Below, one piece after another: positions 37,364 through 45,428 of a stretch of DNA of 45,629 nt. The stretch comes from Anaerolineae bacterium (GTDB lineage: Bacteria > Chloroflexota > Anaerolineae > Aggregatilineales > Phototrophicaceae). Each line of letters begins with the position of its first letter. Within the stretch, counting starts at the first letter, position 1. Location of the stretch: NCBI GenBank assembly GCA_030950085.1, contig JAUZRW010000048.1:1-45629 (forward strand), in the 5' to 3' direction. Below the pieces are notes generated by a model. That model searched no databases and was not told the DNA's origin. It saw nothing but the letters and a program-made list of their open reading frames with translations. Position numbers and translations under genes: made by a program.

Positions 37364-38179
37364 TTATCCACCTGAATTGGGTGTTGGTGTCAGTGTTAAG
37401 GGTGGGTCGGTGATATACACATTGACCATACAAGAAGCTACCAGCGTATTTGTAATATCAAAGACCGTTAAACGAAACAAATAACGCCCCGCTTCATACG
37501 TCGCAGGCAAAAATTCGCTAAATTCTGACATTTGCTGAATGGGATTCGTAATTGTATCGACAACCACATATTGGTCATTGGTACTGGGTCCGCTAATTTC
37601 GAGTTTGGCACTAGAAAAATTATCTGTGAAAGCTGTACCACGCACTGTTGTTGGATAGAAAATAATCATCCCATTAGCAGGGATTTCCAGGTTGGCGCGG
37701 TCATCTAAGCATCCTTGTATTGCAGGTGGATTCGGGATGATTGTGCCGACAGGTGTTGGGGTTAATGTCGGCGTTGGGATAAAGCCTGTATCGCTGACTC
37801 CGCCCGGTGGTGTCCCAATCTCTAAATCAAGCCCCCCTTCACCAATAGGCGGCAGTGTCGGTGTGCGGAAGTCACCATCACTTACTTGCCCGATATCTTG
37901 CTGGGCAAGCAAATCATCCAAATCTCTTTCTTTTTCAAGATACGGAACAGCTTGCACCTGTACACCCGCCAGCAAAATAGAGATTTCAAGCGCAATGATG
38001 ATAACAGTAACAGCAGCTGCTTGGCGATTACGCGCCAAATCTTGCTCTAACTGAAAAAAAGTTGAGCGTAATTCATCGCGTGCTTGTAAAAAGCGCCAAC
38101 CCTGATAAACAATCACTACACCCATCAAGATATAGAGTGGTATTGCCAGCCATTCTAGCATGAAGAAAAACCATGTCAT
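37364..38179 (-). CDS. Hypothetical membrane-anchored protein with Thr/Pro linkers
   Basis: 271 residues. Two hydrophobic segments (about 5-28 and 54-75) enclose a charged loop (QARDELRSTFFQLEQDLARN). After the second, a Pro/Thr-rich linker (PTPTLTPTPVG) leads to a beta-rich domain of about 100 residues (NLEIPANGMIIFYPTTVRGT, YEAGRYLFRLTVFDITNT) that looks like an immunoglobulin/fibronectin-type fold. The end is another TPTP tail. The outside-facing domain probably touches the cell surface. Its ATG overlaps the upstream purine nucleoside phosphorylase stop by four bases. Function unknown. Confidence 0.8.
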   Translation of the reverse strand: MTWFFFMLEWLAIPLYILMGVVIVYQGWRFLQARDELRSTFFQLEQDLARNRQAAAVTVIIIALEISILLAGVQVQAVPYLEKERDLDDLLAQQDIGQVSDGDFRTPTLPPIGEGGLDLEIGTPPGGVSDTGFIPTPTLTPTPVGTIIPNPPAIQGCLDDRANLEIPANGMIIFYPTTVRGTAFTDNFSSAKLEISGPSTNDQYVVVDTITNPIQQMSEFSEFLPATYEAGRYLFRLTVFDITNTLVASCMVNVYITDPPLTLTPTPNSGG

Positions 38180-39018
38180 GCGCTAAAACCTCGTAATACG
38201 CCTTTCAGTATCGTTGCCAGACGCGGCACAATCACTTTGCCGGCTTCCAAAACTTCTTCATGATTCGTTTCAACATCGCTATCAACAGCATCAATCGCCA
38301 CGTTCGTAATCCCTGAACAAGCCATTACTCGCATTCCGGCATGACGCGCCACCAATACCTCATGAACAGTAGACATGCCAACAGCATTCGCGCCCATTGT
38401 GCGGAACATACGAATTTCTGCTGGAGTCTCAAAGGCTGGACCAGAAACCGCCACATAAACCCCCTCATGGAGTGGGATATTATCATCTGTCGCAATAGAG
38501 CGTGCAAGTTGACGCAAATCTCGGTCATAGGCTTGTGCTAGACCAACAAAACGTGCGCCAATGGTCTCATCATTTGGACCCAATAGCGGCGTGTGTCCTG
38601 CAAGACCGGGAAAGTTGATATGGTCATTAATCAGCATCAAATCCCCAACACTGAAAGACGGGTCAATTCCGCCAGCAGCATTGGTTAAGATGACAGTTTT
38701 CACACCCAAAAAGTGCATCACCCGTATCGGGAATGTCACTTGCTGCATGGTATAACCTTCATAGAAGTGCGCTCGTCCTTGCTGTGCAATGACAGTCTGC
38801 CCTTCTAACTTGCCGATAACAAGTTGTCCACTATGCCCATGAACAGTCGAAACGGGCCAACCGGGAATCGCCTCATAAGGAATCGCAATCCGGTCTTCTA
38901 ATGTATCTGCCAAAGTCCCCAATCCTGACCCCAAGACAAGACCAACATCTGGCATTAATGAGCTATGTTCCCGTATAATAGAAACAGCTTGTTCATAATC
39001 AGTGCGCGTATAGGACAT
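38176..39018 (-). CDS. Purine nucleoside phosphorylase
   Basis: Phosphorolysis of inosine or guanosine to base and ribose-1-phosphate (purine salvage). ATG at 39018 preceded by AAAGGAG; 280 residues; the frame extends to 39198 but the extra residues are unlike the family. Features of the trimeric PNP type: VGLVLGSGLGTLAD, TVHGHSGQLVIG, QQGRAHFYEGYTMQQVTFP, LTNAAGGIDPSF, VYVAVSGPAFETPAEIRMFR, GANAVGMSTVHE and the base-specificity Asn in SGITNVAIDAV. Stop overlaps the next start. Confidence 0.94.
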   Translation of the reverse strand: MSYTRTDYEQAVSIIREHSSLMPDVGLVLGSGLGTLADTLEDRIAIPYEAIPGWPVSTVHGHSGQLVIGKLEGQTVIAQQGRAHFYEGYTMQQVTFPIRVMHFLGVKTVILTNAAGGIDPSFSVGDLMLINDHINFPGLAGHTPLLGPNDETIGARFVGLAQAYDRDLRQLARSIATDDNIPLHEGVYVAVSGPAFETPAEIRMFRTMGANAVGMSTVHEVLVARHAGMRVMACSGITNVAIDAVDSDVETNHEEVLEAGKVIVPRLATILKGVLRGFSA

Positions 39019-39166
39019 TTGAACTCCTTTAGTTTCTCTCGTATTCTGATTATAGCGAAGATAAGCGGCTAGATTAAAGTGCATATTCTTGTAAAAATAT
39101 GTTACAAAAGTAAAAAATCTATTATAATGCGTAATAAGTCCTTGTGTTAAGTGGAGTTGATGCTTT

Positions 39167-39406
39167 ATGATTATCAGTCCTGAACGTGTCATGCACAATT
39201 ATGCTCAAGCGTATGAAAAACTCTATAATCGTCGTCCGCGTGATTTGCGTGCAGTAGATAGCCACTGGGTTATTGTCAATGGTGCGCGGATGCGGACTAA
39301 CGAGCTAGAAATCCTCACAAAACAACTTTTACTAGAGTATAAACAAAGTATGCGCGATAGGCGCAGCATTGTCTCGCGTTTGATTCGCTGGTTCAAAACC
39401 ACTTAG
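39167..39406 (+). CDS. Small hypothetical protein
   Basis: 79 residues, basic, with no membrane segment. Sequence features: PERVMHNYAQAYEKLYNRRP (N-terminal helix), DLRAVDSHWVIVNGARMRTN (a beta-hairpin-like stretch) and LEILTKQLLLEYKQSMRDRR, ending with RLIRWFKTT. I do not recognise the family; the pattern suggests a small DNA- or protein-binding protein. TGGAG precedes the ATG by about 10 bases. It is divergent from the PNP gene. A hairpin follows at 39426-39450. Confidence 0.65.
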   Translation: MIISPERVMHNYAQAYEKLYNRRPRDLRAVDSHWVIVNGARMRTNELEILTKQLLLEYKQSMRDRRSIVSRLIRWFKTT

Positions 39407-39638: not shown

Positions 39639-41708
39639 GTGGACGACCTTCGGCGACAACTACAAATTGCCCTAGCCGCATTTTTGATTATTATCCCATT
39701 AGGGACACTCGGTTTCACGGTGATTGAGAAATGGTCTGTACTCGATTCTTTGTATGTGACAGTGATAACCTTATCAACAATTGGCTATGGTGATATAACA
39801 CCTGAATCTGCCGAAAGTAAAATTTTTGCTATTATACTGGCAATTTCTGGTTTAGGTGCTTTTGCCTTTGCAGGTCAGGCAATCGTCCAATTCGTGACAA
39901 GCCCCTTACTGCGTACTGCCCGCCAAAAACGCCAAACTCAGCGCACCATCGACAAACTCAATCATCATTACATCATCTGTGGCATGGGTGAAATGGTGGA
40001 TAAAACAATTGAGTATCTATTGCAGGGTGCAAATGCTCGCCGAAACGCGACTCGCGCACGGCGATATGAACCGATTGATAATTTCCTTGACCGCATTTTT
40101 GGGGATGATGAGCATGGGCATAATCTATGGCTACGTCGTCCATTACAACGCATCATCTTTTTTATCATTGACCGCTTCAGCACACAATCAACTATTCTCG
40201 ATGTGGTTGTCGTGATTACTCAAGATAAGGCTTATGCAGAGCGTCTGCGTAATGATGACTTATTAGTCTTAGAGGGTAATCCCACAGATGATACCCTGTT
40301 AGTCAGTGCTGGCATTGCACGCGCTCAAGCATTGATGGTATTGCTTGAAAATGACACCGAAACCTTACTAGCTGTTCTGACAGCCCACAATCTTGCTCCG
40401 ACATTGCAAATTTCAGCCGCCGTTCTTGATGATGACCTCAGCACAAAAATGACCCGTGTGGGTGCAAACATCATCGTAACACCCTATGATACAGCCGGAC
40501 AATTTCTAAACAATGCAACCTTACGCCCCGCAGTAGCAGATTTTTTCAATGGACTATTATTTGAATACGGTATCGACTATCGCTTGACTCAACTCGATTT
40601 ACTGGATGATTCACCATGGATTGGTCAAACCATTGGGGCATTGCAATTGCGAGAACAATATAATACAGGTGTTATTGGCATCCGCTATGAAGATGCCCAT
40701 TTTGGTTATGCCCCGTCCGCCCAACATGTGCTGCAAGAAGATGAAATACTGATTGTTGTCGCACCATCACACCAAGTCGAAGGTATTAAGCGAAAATGTC
40801 GCGGCAAAAAGGTAAAGTCGCACATCGCATTATGGCAAGCATTACCCAAGCAAAACGACCCCATCCGCAGCGAAAATACTTATTCATTGATTGAATCCGA
40901 GCAAGCTATTGAAGGTATGTCGAAGCACTTTATTATTTGTGGAAGTGACCGTGTAGCACGTAGTGCCATTAGTCGGCTCAATCCAGAGCGCCCGTTCGTT
41001 ATCCTCAGCCATGACAATACATTGACCAGTGAACTTCTCAAGCGTGGTTTCCGTGTGGTACATGGCTCGCCTTCATCAGAAGAAACCTTGATAAAAGCAG
41101 GGGTTCATCGCGCACAAGCTATCATGGTTGCGCTCGAAAAGAAGGCAGATAGTATTTTGACAATATTGAGTAGCCGTGCCTTAAACAAGCATATTCTCAT
41201 TACAGCAACCGCCAATACTGATGATATGATAGATAAGCTAGAACGTGCTGGTGCAGACCGAGTTGTCAGTCCATTCCATGTCGCAGCCCGTTTCATCTTA
41301 CTGACTACAACACGCCCTGAATTAGCTGATTTTGTCAATTATGTGCTGTTCAACTATCATACAGGACTCGAAACGACTGAAATTTACATGGAAGATTCAT
41401 CTGATTGGATTGGGAAATCTATCAGTGATTTGAAACTTGGCAAGCGATTTGATGCCGGTGTGATTGGTGTCCGTACCAGTGACCGCCAAACATTTATGTA
41501 TGCCCCGCCTAGCACCCATGTGATTGAAGCCCATGAGGTTCTGATTATTGTCACACCGATGAAAAATTCAGATGCCCTTGCTAATGATGCTCATGGGGGG
41601 GCTGTTCATGCGCCTAGCACACTGCGTAACCGTGTATTGCAAAGTACAAGATGGACACCAGACCAAGTTCAGGAATTGTTGAAACAAGCACGAGACCAAA
41701 GAAGTTGA
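39639..41708 (+). CDS. Potassium channel with two RCK (TrkA-N/TrkA-C) modules
   Basis: 689 residues. Two transmembrane helices (about 7-28 and 61-85) flank a pore loop with the selectivity filter TIGYGD (47-52). RCK1: Rossmann half from HYIICGMGEMVDKT (110), interrupted by an insertion of about 55 residues (131-187), then VVVVITQDKAYAERL; TrkA-C at about 320-376. RCK2: HFIICGSDRVARSA (430), lacking the GxGxxG pattern; TrkA-C at about 590-645. Such channels gate K flux by ligand or Ca binding to RCK domains. One polypeptide with two RCK modules resembles BK-type and GsuK channels. GTG start; an in-frame stop is just upstream. Confidence 0.92.
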   Translation: MDDLRRQLQIALAAFLIIIPLGTLGFTVIEKWSVLDSLYVTVITLSTIGYGDITPESAESKIFAIILAISGLGAFAFAGQAIVQFVTSPLLRTARQKRQTQRTIDKLNHHYIICGMGEMVDKTIEYLLQGANARRNATRARRYEPIDNFLDRIFGDDEHGHNLWLRRPLQRIIFFIIDRFSTQSTILDVVVVITQDKAYAERLRNDDLLVLEGNPTDDTLLVSAGIARAQALMVLLENDTETLLAVLTAHNLAPTLQISAAVLDDDLSTKMTRVGANIIVTPYDTAGQFLNNATLRPAVADFFNGLLFEYGIDYRLTQLDLLDDSPWIGQTIGALQLREQYNTGVIGIRYEDAHFGYAPSAQHVLQEDEILIVVAPSHQVEGIKRKCRGKKVKSHIALWQALPKQNDPIRSENTYSLIESEQAIEGMSKHFIICGSDRVARSAISRLNPERPFVILSHDNTLTSELLKRGFRVVHGSPSSEETLIKAGVHRAQAIMVALEKKADSILTILSSRALNKHILITATANTDDMIDKLERAGADRVVSPFHVAARFILLTTTRPELADFVNYVLFNYHTGLETTEIYMEDSSDWIGKSISDLKLGKRFDAGVIGVRTSDRQTFMYAPPSTHVIEAHEVLIIVTPMKNSDALANDAHGGAVHAPSTLRNRVLQSTRWTPDQVQELLKQARDQRS

Positions 41709-41721
41709 AGTTTTCAGTATG

Positions 41722-43110
41722 TCACCAAGAGGCATCAGGTTTGCGAAAAAGAGGGTTAATCTGCTGCAATCCTGCTTTACGACGTTCAGCGTGATAACCA
41801 GCCAGTGTATTAATATCGCTGAGGATAGTATCTGTTTTGACCTTAAGATACGTTATATTGTCGTGGAGCATATCAAATAAGTCGGAAAGTGATTTTGTTT
41901 GTCGTCTATCGAGAATTTCTGACCAATAACGCCGCGCTATCAGCATCGGGTAGCCACGCATTGTTTGAAATGTCGGAATGAGAAAATCGCCCTGACCTTC
42001 AGAATAAGCCTTCAACAAGCGATACACAACTTTCGGTTCAATACGCGGTTGGTCAGCTAAAACAATCATTGCCGCTGAGACGTTTTCAGGCATCGCCCGT
42101 AGCCCAACACGCAATGATGACAACCTATCGCCCGTTTTGTAGCCCCTATTATGCACAACTTTCACATCCATTGCTTTAGCGCGACTCTTCACCAATGCTG
42201 CATCATGTCCTGTCACGACACTCACAAAATTCAGTCGTGATTTTATCAACTGCACAATAATGTGTTCAATAATCGTCCGACTACGTGTCCATGGTAAGAG
42301 TACCTTCGGCATATCCATATGTTCAGAGGCACTCGCCGCTAGTACCATTGCCCCTACAGGGCGTTGAACTTCTAATACAGGGTCAGCCGCCCGAATTGAA
42401 CCCAAGGCAACACCATTAAAACGGGGCGATTGCAAAGCCAATTTTGCAATGAGACGCGCCCTACCGCGCAGATACCCTTCGTTTGGAGTCTGATTAATAA
42501 AGGCAACGACTCGTGCTTTGTCAGGGATTCCCTGTAAGCCGAGTTCTGCATCGCGCAGCACTTGTGCAATCCATGGCGAACGAACACGGCTACTGGGGTA
42601 GAATCCATACTTATCTATCATCGCTTGTGAATTATAAATATTCTCATCATCCAATGGTTTATCTAAGGCACTTAAAGAGGCTATTGGAATAACCAAAGAG
42701 GCTTCTTTCGGGATAGCGGGTTCATCAGCATAAGGCGCTTTCAACGGCTTACCTTCTGAACTGTCGGCTTCAATCAGCAAAACATCGCTATCGACTGTAT
42801 CGAGTACCTGTTTTGTCCATTCGATAGAGGGTCCATAAACCTTGCCAGCACATATCACATCGTATAAAAACACAAAGCCGTATTCAGACAAAGCTGCTGA
42901 AATAGCTTCGGGTTTCATATTGTAGTACATGGCATGGGGCATCAATGCCAGTTGTTCTTCTTCAATTACAGTTGTTGTCGTCGCTAGAACACGCCAGCCG
43001 GATTCTATCAACTCATAGCCCATGCCGATGAGTGCGGATGTCTTGCCACCTGCGCCTATGAATGCAACCACATCGCCGCGTGCGACCTCAAATGCTTGTT
43101 GGAATTTCAT
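41722..43110 (-). CDS. YqeC-MocA fusion (molybdoenzyme cofactor maturation)
   Basis: 462 residues. Residues 1-235 are YqeC-like: P-loop IGAGGKTSALIGM (17-29), LATTTTVI, LLIEADSSEGKPLKAP. Residues 250-455 are a MobA/MocA-type nucleotidyltransferase: LAASASEHMDMPKVLLPW in place of the LAAGxSxRMGxxK signature, VVTGHDAALV, GDRLSSLRVGL, IVLADQPRIEP and FQTMRGYPMLIARRYW. The family transfers CMP or GMP to molybdopterin and is linked with xanthine dehydrogenase-type enzymes. ATG preceded by AAGGTG. No molybdoenzyme gene is in the window. The altered signature is odd and could affect nucleotide binding. Confidence 0.87.
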   Translation of the reverse strand: MKFQQAFEVARGDVVAFIGAGGKTSALIGMGYELIESGWRVLATTTTVIEEEQLALMPHAMYYNMKPEAISAALSEYGFVFLYDVICAGKVYGPSIEWTKQVLDTVDSDVLLIEADSSEGKPLKAPYADEPAIPKEASLVIPIASLSALDKPLDDENIYNSQAMIDKYGFYPSSRVRSPWIAQVLRDAELGLQGIPDKARVVAFINQTPNEGYLRGRARLIAKLALQSPRFNGVALGSIRAADPVLEVQRPVGAMVLAASASEHMDMPKVLLPWTRSRTIIEHIIVQLIKSRLNFVSVVTGHDAALVKSRAKAMDVKVVHNRGYKTGDRLSSLRVGLRAMPENVSAAMIVLADQPRIEPKVVYRLLKAYSEGQGDFLIPTFQTMRGYPMLIARRYWSEILDRRQTKSLSDLFDMLHDNITYLKVKTDTILSDINTLAGYHAERRKAGLQQINPLFRKPDASW

Positions 43111-43188: not shown

Positions 43189-44934
43189 CTAACAGCCGAC
43201 ATTGCCTTGCAAGCGCCTCATTTCAACAACGAAAATACGGCGCAAAATGGCAATCGCTGTCGCATAGGCAGGTTCAATCCCTGTATAACTCATACTACCC
43301 GCACCGAGATTCTGCCCATGCTTCATCGGTGTATCAGAGCCATAATGCAAAAAACCAATATCAAAAGGCACTTGGTATAGATTCACGATTTCATTGGAGG
43401 GATGCCGTTTGGGTCGGAAAGCCTCATAAACAGCCGATAGATAGGGACCACCTTCCATTTCAATATCCGTGTAGCCTTCACGATAAAATACCGACATATA
43501 GCCTGAATTTTGCAAATATGTCCCTAGTGCCGTGACCGCTTTCTGATTATCCATCACGTTTCCCAGCGACATATAAGGCTTCACATCTTCGGCACAAAAT
43601 ACATTGTCGAAAAGATAGGTATTTTGCGAATGTTCGTCATGGATAACATTGGGAATCATCACATCGCCAATCCGCCCATTCAATGTGGCTGCTTTGCCCA
43701 AAATATAAACCCCCTGCAAACGACTCGTTGTGCGCTCACTAATCCGACTCAGCATTTCATAAGCTGCCATGCCAAGGGGGTAATCAATATTGAGAATAAG
43801 GGCATTACTTTGGCTTAAAGCAGTCATGTCTCCTAGCAAAAGACGTTTATCCATCCAATCATTGTGGAGGGTGCTTACATCAATAACCTGTGCCTCAATC
43901 TCAAAACCATGCTTATTCGGCACACGGTAAATCCCGACACTGCGTTCATCGGCATGAATTTGTTCGATTGCCCCAGATTGCGTATCAGATAAATATTTAC
44001 CCAAAACGTAATATAAAAAATTTTCGAGGCTTTTTTGGGGATGTTTCTGGATATCTTCATATTCTAGGAGCAAGGCTTCGTAGTTATAGTCCTTAACATA
44101 GTCAAGCAAACTTTGCTCATGACGATGCGCGAAACCTGTGAGCAAATTGACAAGCGAATGAGTATTGGAAGATACAAAATATATCGGATGTTGCTCAACA
44201 TCGGGTCCATCGGCTTCAAGAACCGCTTGGCGCATTTCTTCCCACCAAGATGCCGTTGCCCTACGATAATCTGCCAGCGAACCGGAAATCAGTGCGATGC
44301 CAATGTTTTTAGGGTTTCCTGCAACCTGCAACAAGGTATCGACAAATTCATCCTGCCACACAATTTCCAAGCGTTTCAAATCCGCACGTTCCATCCGTAA
44401 CAAGTCCGATAATCGTTCGATATCAGATTCGCTCAATCGTGTTTCTTGCCCACGCCGTTGTTCCAAAAATTGCCGTGCTTGAGTATCTTTTAGCAATAGG
44501 TGTAGCTTATTCCACTCGATTTGATACGCTGTGAGAATCGGTACAAGGTCATCAATATCAGAGCGGCTCGCAATGTAGACAACCAATGTTGATTTGCCGT
44601 CAAATAAAGTACGGCGACGACGACCCGGCGCATAAACTCGTGTCCACTGCGAAATTTCATGATAGCCAGCATCTACAAAAGATTGTTCAGTTTGCCCTAT
44701 TAAAACAAGATTGCTTTCTTTGATGCACGGCGGCAAACGCAAAGCACTATACAAAAGAGAAGAAACATCCGGCTGCAACTTTGCTGCCCCAACGTGCAGT
44801 GACGATTGCATAGCAATGTGACTTTCGACCAACGTTTCTATCTGTATTACACCACTAGAGCGCAGCAGCGAATAATACGTCCGCATGTACAATTGAATTT
44901 CTTCGCCGCCTGTTTTCGGTACAGTTCTTTCCAC
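43189..44934 (-). CDS. Large uncharacterised protein with phosphorylase-like C-terminus
   Basis: 581 residues, soluble. The N-terminal 340 residues are mixed alpha/beta with a charged helical stretch (LRMERADLKRLEIVWQDEF, NPKNIGIALISGSLADYRRA). Residues about 375-560 carry elements like nucleoside phosphorylases: LILNIDYPLGMAAYEML, VYILGKAATLNGRIGDVMIP, YTDIEMEGGPYLSAVYE (compare the EMEG motif), and DTPMKHGQNLGAGSMSY. I believe there is a DUF for this family but cannot name it with certainty. The start is a GTG at 44934 without a clear ribosome binding site; an ATG 16 codons in is an alternative. It lies upstream of the YqeC-MocA gene on the same strand. Confidence 0.75.
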   Translation of the reverse strand: MERTVPKTGGEEIQLYMRTYYSLLRSSGVIQIETLVESHIAMQSSLHVGAAKLQPDVSSLLYSALRLPPCIKESNLVLIGQTEQSFVDAGYHEISQWTRVYAPGRRRRTLFDGKSTLVVYIASRSDIDDLVPILTAYQIEWNKLHLLLKDTQARQFLEQRRGQETRLSESDIERLSDLLRMERADLKRLEIVWQDEFVDTLLQVAGNPKNIGIALISGSLADYRRATASWWEEMRQAVLEADGPDVEQHPIYFVSSNTHSLVNLLTGFAHRHEQSLLDYVKDYNYEALLLEYEDIQKHPQKSLENFLYYVLGKYLSDTQSGAIEQIHADERSVGIYRVPNKHGFEIEAQVIDVSTLHNDWMDKRLLLGDMTALSQSNALILNIDYPLGMAAYEMLSRISERTTSRLQGVYILGKAATLNGRIGDVMIPNVIHDEHSQNTYLFDNVFCAEDVKPYMSLGNVMDNQKAVTALGTYLQNSGYMSVFYREGYTDIEMEGGPYLSAVYEAFRPKRHPSNEIVNLYQVPFDIGFLHYGSDTPMKHGQNLGAGSMSYTGIEPAYATAIAILRRIFVVEMRRLQGNVGC

Positions 44935-45017: not shown

Positions 45018-45428
45018 TTACTGATTTTTCTGTCGATTAGCTTTTTTCATTTTGGCGTGCATTTGTGCCTTACGCCGTTTAGCCCGTAGACGTTCTGCAT
45101 CCATCTCTTCTTTTTCTCTCTTCAAGGTACTTTCAGATGTTTCTTTACGATTCTTCGGCTTGGGTGCAAACACTGCAAAGACCATCGAAAAAACACCAAT
45201 AAGCACAAGACCAATACCAAAGGCGACAACATATTCCATGACAGAATCTTCTGGTAAGCCTGTCGTATTGGTCAAGAGGTTTGATTTAACGAAGGCATAA
45301 ACAGAAGCCCGTCCAAAATACCCGACAGCCCCTGCAATGCCTATTAGTATGAGACCAATAATCGGATAATAGGGCTTAAGAGGGTCTTTCCTTTTAGCTT
45401 CGTACTTTCTACGATAGTCACTGCTCAT
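45018..45428 (-). CDS. Small membrane protein with basic coiled tail
   Basis: 136 residues. N-terminal basic segment (SSDYRRKYEAKRKDPLK), hydrophobic helix 1 (YYPIIGLILIGIAGAVGYF), a loop with SNLLTNTTGLPEDS, hydrophobic helix 2 (YVVAFGIGLVLIGVFSMVF), and a strongly charged C-terminal region of about 45 residues (STLKREKEEMDAERLRAKRR) likely to form a helix in the cytoplasm. Both ends are predicted inside. Family not recognised. It is separated from the 581-residue gene by 83 bases. Confidence 0.75.
   Translation of the reverse strand: MSSDYRRKYEAKRKDPLKPYYPIIGLILIGIAGAVGYFGRASVYAFVKSNLLTNTTGLPEDSVMEYVVAFGIGLVLIGVFSMVFAVFAPKPKNRKETSESTLKREKEEMDAERLRAKRRKAQMHAKMKKANRQKNQ

Follow-up and report, generated by a model that had tools for sequence, protein, structure and literature searches.

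A full-length DUF6909 protein of Anaerolineae, predicted to contain a nucleoside phosphorylase-I domain, as a proposed purine nucleosidase

What is the function of the 581-residue protein encoded close to the end of an Anaerolineae contig? The gene is located at positions 43189 to 44934, on the minus strand, of the window, by which we mean the whole 45,629-nucleotide stretch analyzed, and we propose here that its product is a purine nucleosidase. The original prediction, made from the sequence alone, had described an uncharacterized protein with phosphorylase-like elements. The open reading frame is real, begins with a GTG codon, and encodes a full-length member of the Pfam family DUF6909 (PF21850), with no difference found: the family model matched residues 32 to 568 (E value of 2.8e-219; 729.3 bits versus a curated cutoff of 27). 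The term "uncharacterized" is therefore apt for the function, which is undescribed, but not for the family, which is already catalogued. No paper was found in literature searches under DUF6909 and PF21850, NCBIfam gave no match for the window protein, and neither phmmer nor hmmsearch matched DUF6909 to PDB sequences at an E value of ≤10. The GTG start is credible because VERTVP at the beginning of the protein aligns with M(D/E)RTVP of its relatives. Met1, Arg3, Thr4, Val5, and Pro6 were nearly invariant in a 57-row alignment (A1; 57 of the 81 proteins, namely, the window protein and those from 56 of 80 genome loci, with near-duplicates and the fragment L093 omitted). ATG was the start codon at 76 of the 80 genome loci, a count that leans towards agreement since the codon nearest to the start of the window protein was chosen. 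DUF6909 is single copy in the window genome, the sole other match being at chance level (E value of 0.149).

We modeled the whole protein with AlphaFold2 from the 57-sequence alignment and obtained a pLDDT of 87.6 and a pTM of 0.89. A Foldseek search of the model against PDB gave 590 matches at an E value of ≤0.001, the first of which was an AMP nucleosidase (2guw; E value of 6.5e-8), and the best 50 of the 590 were all nucleoside phosphorylase-I (NP-I) enzymes. Among the 50 VIA matches listed, Z scores ranged from 16.3 to 17.6 over 202 to 243 residues, with an rmsd of 2.9 to 3.9 and 7 to 13% identity; 8sws, for example, aligned over 239 residues with an rmsd of 3.4 and 8% identity. The top VIA matches (best Z of 17.6; rmsd of 3.4 over 239 residues) were purine nucleoside phosphorylases (PNPs), not AMP nucleosidase. 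Thus, approximately residues 219 to 575 are predicted to adopt the NP-I fold. The alignments of these 50 matches started at model residues 218 to 249 and ended at residues 567 to 578, implying that the NP-I domain begins near residue 219; we assign it to residues 219 to 581 (positions 43192 to 44280, minus strand). It would contain a mostly helical insertion at about residues 268 to 334 (positions 43933 to 44133, minus strand), with limits estimated from the secondary structure of the model. The unrelated fold that the original prediction had named as its refuting outcome did not appear, and the two motifs on which that prediction relied, GDVMIP (residues 423 to 428) and DIEMEGGPYLSA (residues 490 to 501), are indeed present. 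The phosphorylase-like part that it had confined to the C-terminal third was borne out in kind but not in extent, since the predicted domain is considerably larger.

The Pfam model for NP-I proteins, PF01048, matched neither the whole protein nor residues 219 to 581 at an E value of ≤10, a range in which the HMMER filters discard most matches above an E value of about 0.1, whereas E. coli Amn, used as a control, did match it. DUF6909 would accordingly be an NP-I protein invisible to the standard family model. PNPs and uridine phosphorylases of PF01048 have the same fold as that predicted for DUF6909 (VIA Z of about 17), although DUF6909 falls outside PF01048 and is about twice as long. E. coli DeoD has the same order of VEME and SD but no SDxP. 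The 5'-methylthioadenosine/S-adenosylhomocysteine (MTA/SAH) nucleosidase MtnN, a hydrolase of the superfamily, resembles DUF6909 in fold, as enzymes of its type are among the Foldseek matches listed, and the E. coli protein also has VEME followed by SD; however, it has SDVA instead of SDxP, comprises 232 amino acids without an N-terminal domain, and has no profile similarity to DUF6909.

Does the predicted domain retain the residues of an enzyme? According to a cryo-EM report on Klebsiella AMP nucleosidase (KpAmn), N205, W383, M404, E405, and D428 serve the base and sugar; R381 and K436, together with H188/Y189 from the apposed chain, contact the phosphate; a conserved and poorly resolved loop (residues 435 to 443) lies over the active site; and more distant homologues retain only M404, E405, and D428 (PMC9584410). 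We paired AMP nucleosidase with DUF6909 by manual alignment, based on strand order and shared blocks rather than on coordinate superposition. In this pairing, N205 corresponds to Asn257, M404-E405 to Met493-Glu494, and D428 to Asp534, and all four are identical in all of 110 DUF6909 sequences (a set that omits L022, L031, and L093 and includes two Persicobacter proteins). Asn257-Thr-His259 (positions 44158 to 44166, minus strand) follows the first NP-I strand, and His259 is likewise invariant in the 110 sequences. The putative ribose-binding block, Glu492-Met493-Glu494, is encoded at positions 43453 to 43461 and Ser533-Asp534-Thr-Pro536 at positions 43327 to 43338, both on the minus strand. 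Besides, Gly413, Lys414, Gly423, and Asp424 in the GKAATLNGRIGD block (residues 413 to 424; positions 43663 to 43698, minus strand) are invariant in 110/110. A conserved Gly-rich loop, residues 537 to 548, comes directly after Ser533-Pro536 and has a pLDDT below 50.

The invariance of these catalytic-type residues points to an enzyme rather than a sensor, and DUF6909 is very probably an enzyme of the NP-I superfamily. The original prediction had favored a nucleoside- or nucleotide-sensing protein, that is, a ligand-binding sensor or regulator which keeps the NP-I pocket without catalysis. The large conserved extra domain with its invariant arginines would suit such a role, and so would the scarcity of recurrent neighbors in other Chloroflexota families described below. 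A pure binder, however, would not need Met493, Glu494, and Asp534 all to be invariant, and a Pfam search at an E value of ≤10 revealed no domain other than DUF6909; we therefore find the sensing role unsupported and quite improbable.

If DUF6909 is an enzyme, which bond does it cleave, and in which substrate? When the GT and SDxP blocks were used as anchors for a manual alignment, Tyr479, Ser481, and Asn542 fell opposite R381, W383, and K436 of KpAmn, respectively, and in the window protein no His-Tyr pair that could be a counterpart of H188/Y189 was seen ahead of the first strand. Since R381 and K436 are not matched, the phosphate of a nucleotide would need to be held otherwise in DUF6909, and Lys414, His259, or basic residues near positions 539 to 541 may be candidates for this. 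Arg24 and Arg87 of E. coli PNP, which we take to be its phosphate-binding arginines, pair in a manual alignment with S/A/C260 and V/I/L/A411, respectively, in all 110 sequences. The lack of arginine at both positions argues for hydrolysis over phosphorolysis, although this argument depends on the register because the invariant basic residue His259 adjoins the position paired with Arg24.

We thus give a probability of roughly one-half to the full proposal that DUF6909 is an NP-I enzyme which, like AMP nucleosidase, cleaves the N-glycosidic bond of its substrate, a purine nucleotide or nucleoside, by hydrolysis. Protonation of the purine ring would fall to Asp534 and binding of the ribose to Met493 and Glu494, and Asn257 would be placed by the base and sugar. 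The attacking group would be water, not phosphate, and the conserved flexible loop (residues 537 to 548) may fold over the active site. For the N-terminal domain, which has many invariant arginines, we propose binding of an anionic ligand; this site would either be regulatory or contribute to the active site of a neighboring subunit. Finally, in Anaerolineae-type bacteria, the released base might feed a xanthine-dehydrogenase-like enzyme encoded around DUF6909.

Alternatively, DUF6909 might be an enzyme of this fold, either a phosphorylase or a hydrolase, whose substrate is a purine nucleoside that is unphosphorylated or unusual (xanthosine, inosine, or a methylthio- or deoxynucleoside) and not AMP-nucleosidase-like. 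This is consistent with the same fold evidence, in which VIA ranks PNPs at the top, with the unmatched phosphate contacts of AMP nucleosidase, and with the purine phosphorylase gene and the xanthine-dehydrogenase-like enzyme in the neighborhood. Nevertheless, four PF01048 enzymes are already encoded in the window genome, the presumed phosphate arginines of phosphorylases are missing in the manual alignment, and an ordered block pattern, described next, is common to AMP nucleosidase and absent from 48 other NP-I sequences. We consider such a nucleoside-specific enzyme somewhat unlikely.

How close, then, is DUF6909 to AMP nucleosidase? A link to known NP-I families based solely on sequence was pursued and rejected, as the phmmer and hmmsearch searches of PDB sequences found no match and neither hhalign nor hmmsearch with shuffled sequences gave a signal above controls. 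The hhalign probability for DUF6909 versus AMP nucleosidase was 0.4 to 0.6%, and E. coli Amn, the PNP of the window, and a nine-member Amn profile did no better than the control profiles. With hmmsearch, the best real AMP nucleosidase scored 8.2 bits (E value of 0.11), and one of 1,140 shuffled sequences scored higher; with the full profile, the best one scored 7.1 bits and two shuffled sequences scored higher. Searching in the reverse direction brought no improvement. Kinship with AMP nucleosidase therefore rests on the fold and on ordered motifs. The pattern G[KH][ACS][AG].L..GD, GT, [DE]ME, and SDxP, in this order, which was composed after both families had been viewed, occurred in all 110 DUF6909 sequences and all nine AMP nucleosidases, in none of 48 other NP-I sequences (45 PNPs, DeoD, MtnN, and Udp), and in none of 31 PNP-type open reading frames. 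It was also absent from 429 unrelated control proteins and 14,500 shuffled sequences, and the 3,765 frames of at least 150 residues from 191 sources yielded it solely in DUF6909 and the nine AMP nucleosidases. Another 17 DUF6909 loci were not part of the 110 (copies fetched again excluded), and 16 of them had the pattern, the exception being L137, with ST in place of GT and the remaining blocks kept.

The resemblance also concerns architecture: in the long form of AMP nucleosidase, found in Proteobacteria and carrying AMNp_N (PF10423), the NP-I catalytic domain likewise stands behind an extra N-terminal domain. Further likenesses are the putative counterparts, paired by hand, of N205, M404, E405, and D428 and the conserved loop after SDxP, which is poorly ordered in KpAmn and of low confidence in the DUF6909 model. 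In contrast, DUF6909 lacks AMNp_N and significant profile similarity, and the phosphate-contact residues and W383 are unmatched in the manual alignment. AMNp_N was not detected in the window protein, although the E. coli Amn control matched it; the short AMP nucleosidase of Bacteroidota is also without it. In Chloroflexota, it was found in 0 of 101 genomes, a test to which the short Amn form would be invisible. DUF6909 probably works like AMP nucleosidase, yet we do not class it as one.

The N-terminal domain comprises residues 1 to 218 (positions 44281 to 44934, minus strand). Residues 1 to 224 predicted alone gave a fold with a pLDDT of 89.9, and Arg66, Arg105 to Arg107, Ser125, Asp129, Glu140, and Lys143 are invariant in 110/110. 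Foldseek with this domain alone found nothing at an E value of ≤0.001 (best, 0.17). The best VIA Z was 3.8, and NP-I enzymes made up 43 of the 50 matches listed; both matches to long AMP nucleosidases aligned the domain from their residue 172 or 182 on, outside AMNp_N. These matches are too weak to name a fold, nor do they provide evidence of a new one, and the original impression of an N-terminal part without resemblance to known enzymes holds within the limits of these searches.

DUF6909 was found in 139 of 400 genomes drawn evenly from Chloroflexota, the phylum of the window, and in none of 14 named control genomes. Among GTDB genomes, 442 stretches encode relatives, of which 80 were kept, 78 of them with Chloroflexota names. 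In a hand count of the genomes listed for four families picked for size or nearness, DUF6909 was present in 9/9 (f5), 23/23 (f31), 28/29 (f30), and 0/24 (f2), and other families, e.g., f25, were mixed. Presence is thus close to all-or-none by family in the four counted, and DUF6909 resembles a core gene transmitted vertically within families. Two plasmid homologues were found outside Chloroflexota, in Persicobacter (Bacteroidota), one of which has 26% overall identity to the window protein and scores 219 bits against DUF6909. No relative was found in phage records and viral contigs. A conflict-system reading, with NP-I as the effector, was considered and set aside, since it does not agree with an occurrence that is family-wide and mostly single copy. 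As a separate observation, loci L088 (labeled Pleurocapsa minor, a cyanobacterium) and L060 (labeled Bacteroidetes) encode DUF6909 proteins 56% and 60% identical to that of the window, respectively; this identity is as in Chloroflexota, and the labels or bins are probably wrong.

A broader proposal is that DUF6909 is a second, independently elaborated nucleosidase for AMP or another purine 5'-nucleotide, which replaces classical Amn in much of Chloroflexota, is regulated by an unprecedented N-terminal domain, possibly a decayed NP-I half, and is coupled in Anaerolineae to xanthine-dehydrogenase-like purine oxidation. We regard this as tentative and rather doubtful. What we have is no new kind of system but a good lead to the function of an already catalogued DUF. 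It nonetheless offers a function that can be tested for a Pfam family nearly fixed in several Chloroflexota families and, if true, would fill a gap in their purine metabolism, either by controlling the AMP pool or by supplying bases to the xanthine-dehydrogenase-like enzyme.

Do neighboring genes accord with a role in purine metabolism? Neighborhoods were counted at 79 of the 80 loci (DUF6909 was not called in L101), with gene families formed by BLAST linkage and paralogues merged. A gene for a fused FAD/2Fe-2S subunit was located one or two genes upstream of DUF6909 at 69 of the 79 loci, and a gene for a molybdopterin-binding large subunit was located one or two genes downstream at 66. DUF6909 lay between the two at 62 of 79 loci, or 52 of the 60 where both sides reached at least about 3 kb, and one or both flanking subunit genes were missing in 17 of 79 relatives. 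At an example locus, the top-scoring models for the subunits were those of xanthine dehydrogenase, but the scores did not reach the naming cutoffs; hence, the enzyme is termed xanthine-dehydrogenase-like. Anywhere in the 79 loci, we found a YqeC-MobA fusion (53 loci), CofD, of F420 synthesis (46 loci), PNP (45 loci), XdhC (31 loci), and an SsnA-type aminohydrolase (24 loci).

In the window, the gene 78 bases downstream of DUF6909 (positions 41722 to 43110, minus strand) encodes a fusion of YqeC with a MobA-like nucleotidyltransferase, by family name a factor of molybdenum/selenium hydroxylase maturation, and a PNP gene of the inosine/guanosine type is found 4 kb downstream (positions 38179 to 39198, minus strand). 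Upstream by 83 bases is a gene for a 136-residue protein (positions 45018 to 45428, minus strand) that has no Pfam match and looks like a membrane protein; its family was directly upstream of DUF6909 in 20 of the 80 neighborhoods, window included. The window is the entire contig and ends 201 bases past this gene. The best matches to the hydroxylase subunits in the window genome were on two other contigs, C253 and C68, and the xanthine-dehydrogenase-like enzyme thus appears to be split over separate contigs. On C68 (L124), the FAD-FeS subunit gene is next to genes for an amidohydrolase and a luciferase-like protein; on C253 (L125), a histidine phosphatase gene is near the molybdenum subunit gene.

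The arrangement raises the possibility that DUF6909 is a dedicated partner, i.e., a maturation factor or an extra subunit, of the flanking xanthine-dehydrogenase-like molybdenum enzyme. Its position between both subunit genes and the frequency of XdhC and the YqeC-MobA fusion nearby would fit such a partner. However, DUF6909 was called in 16 of 18 regions from other Chloroflexota families (another frame was chosen in L140 and L143), and the hydroxylase arrangement was absent from these 16 loci, although in one of them, L128, an FAD-FeS gene occurs upstream at a distance of three genes. No neighbor family occurred in three or more of the 16, and one adjoined DUF6909 in two. Co-occurrence of DUF6909 with molybdenum hydroxylases is uninformative because MoCoBD_1 was present in 338 of the 400 genomes; conversely, at least five genomes (G004, G009, G032, G045, and G063) have DUF6909 but no MoCoBD_1 match, which indicates that the molybdenum-hydroxylase pathway is not required. 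A dedicated partner is therefore very improbable. The association with purine oxidation, although strong in one lineage, is thus not essential to DUF6909.

Some further features of these neighborhoods were observed. In three Anaerolineae relatives (L033:1-7940, L044:1-8500, and L048:1-8500), F420 genes precede the hydroxylase cluster, namely, those for CofE, CofD, CofC, a luciferase-like oxidoreductase, and a nitroreductase, and L048 also has an SsnA-type aminohydrolase gene. Between the luciferase-like and XdhC genes, L033 encodes an 822-residue protein (L033:3987-6455) that matches neither Pfam nor NCBIfam and whose family was present in 25 of 80 neighborhoods. Beside the purine phosphorylase gene, the window encodes a 271-residue protein (positions 37364 to 38179, minus strand) with hydrophobic N-terminal stretches and Thr-Pro-rich parts. 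Pfam gave no match to it, and PDB gave none better than an E value of 0.04; its family was near DUF6909 in 41 of the 80 neighborhoods, window included. Convergent with the YqeC-MobA gene is a gene for a 689-residue potassium-channel protein with two TrkA-N stretches and TrkA-C (positions 39639 to 41708, plus strand), and this family was found near DUF6909, on the opposite strand, in 39 of the 80 neighborhoods, again counting the window.
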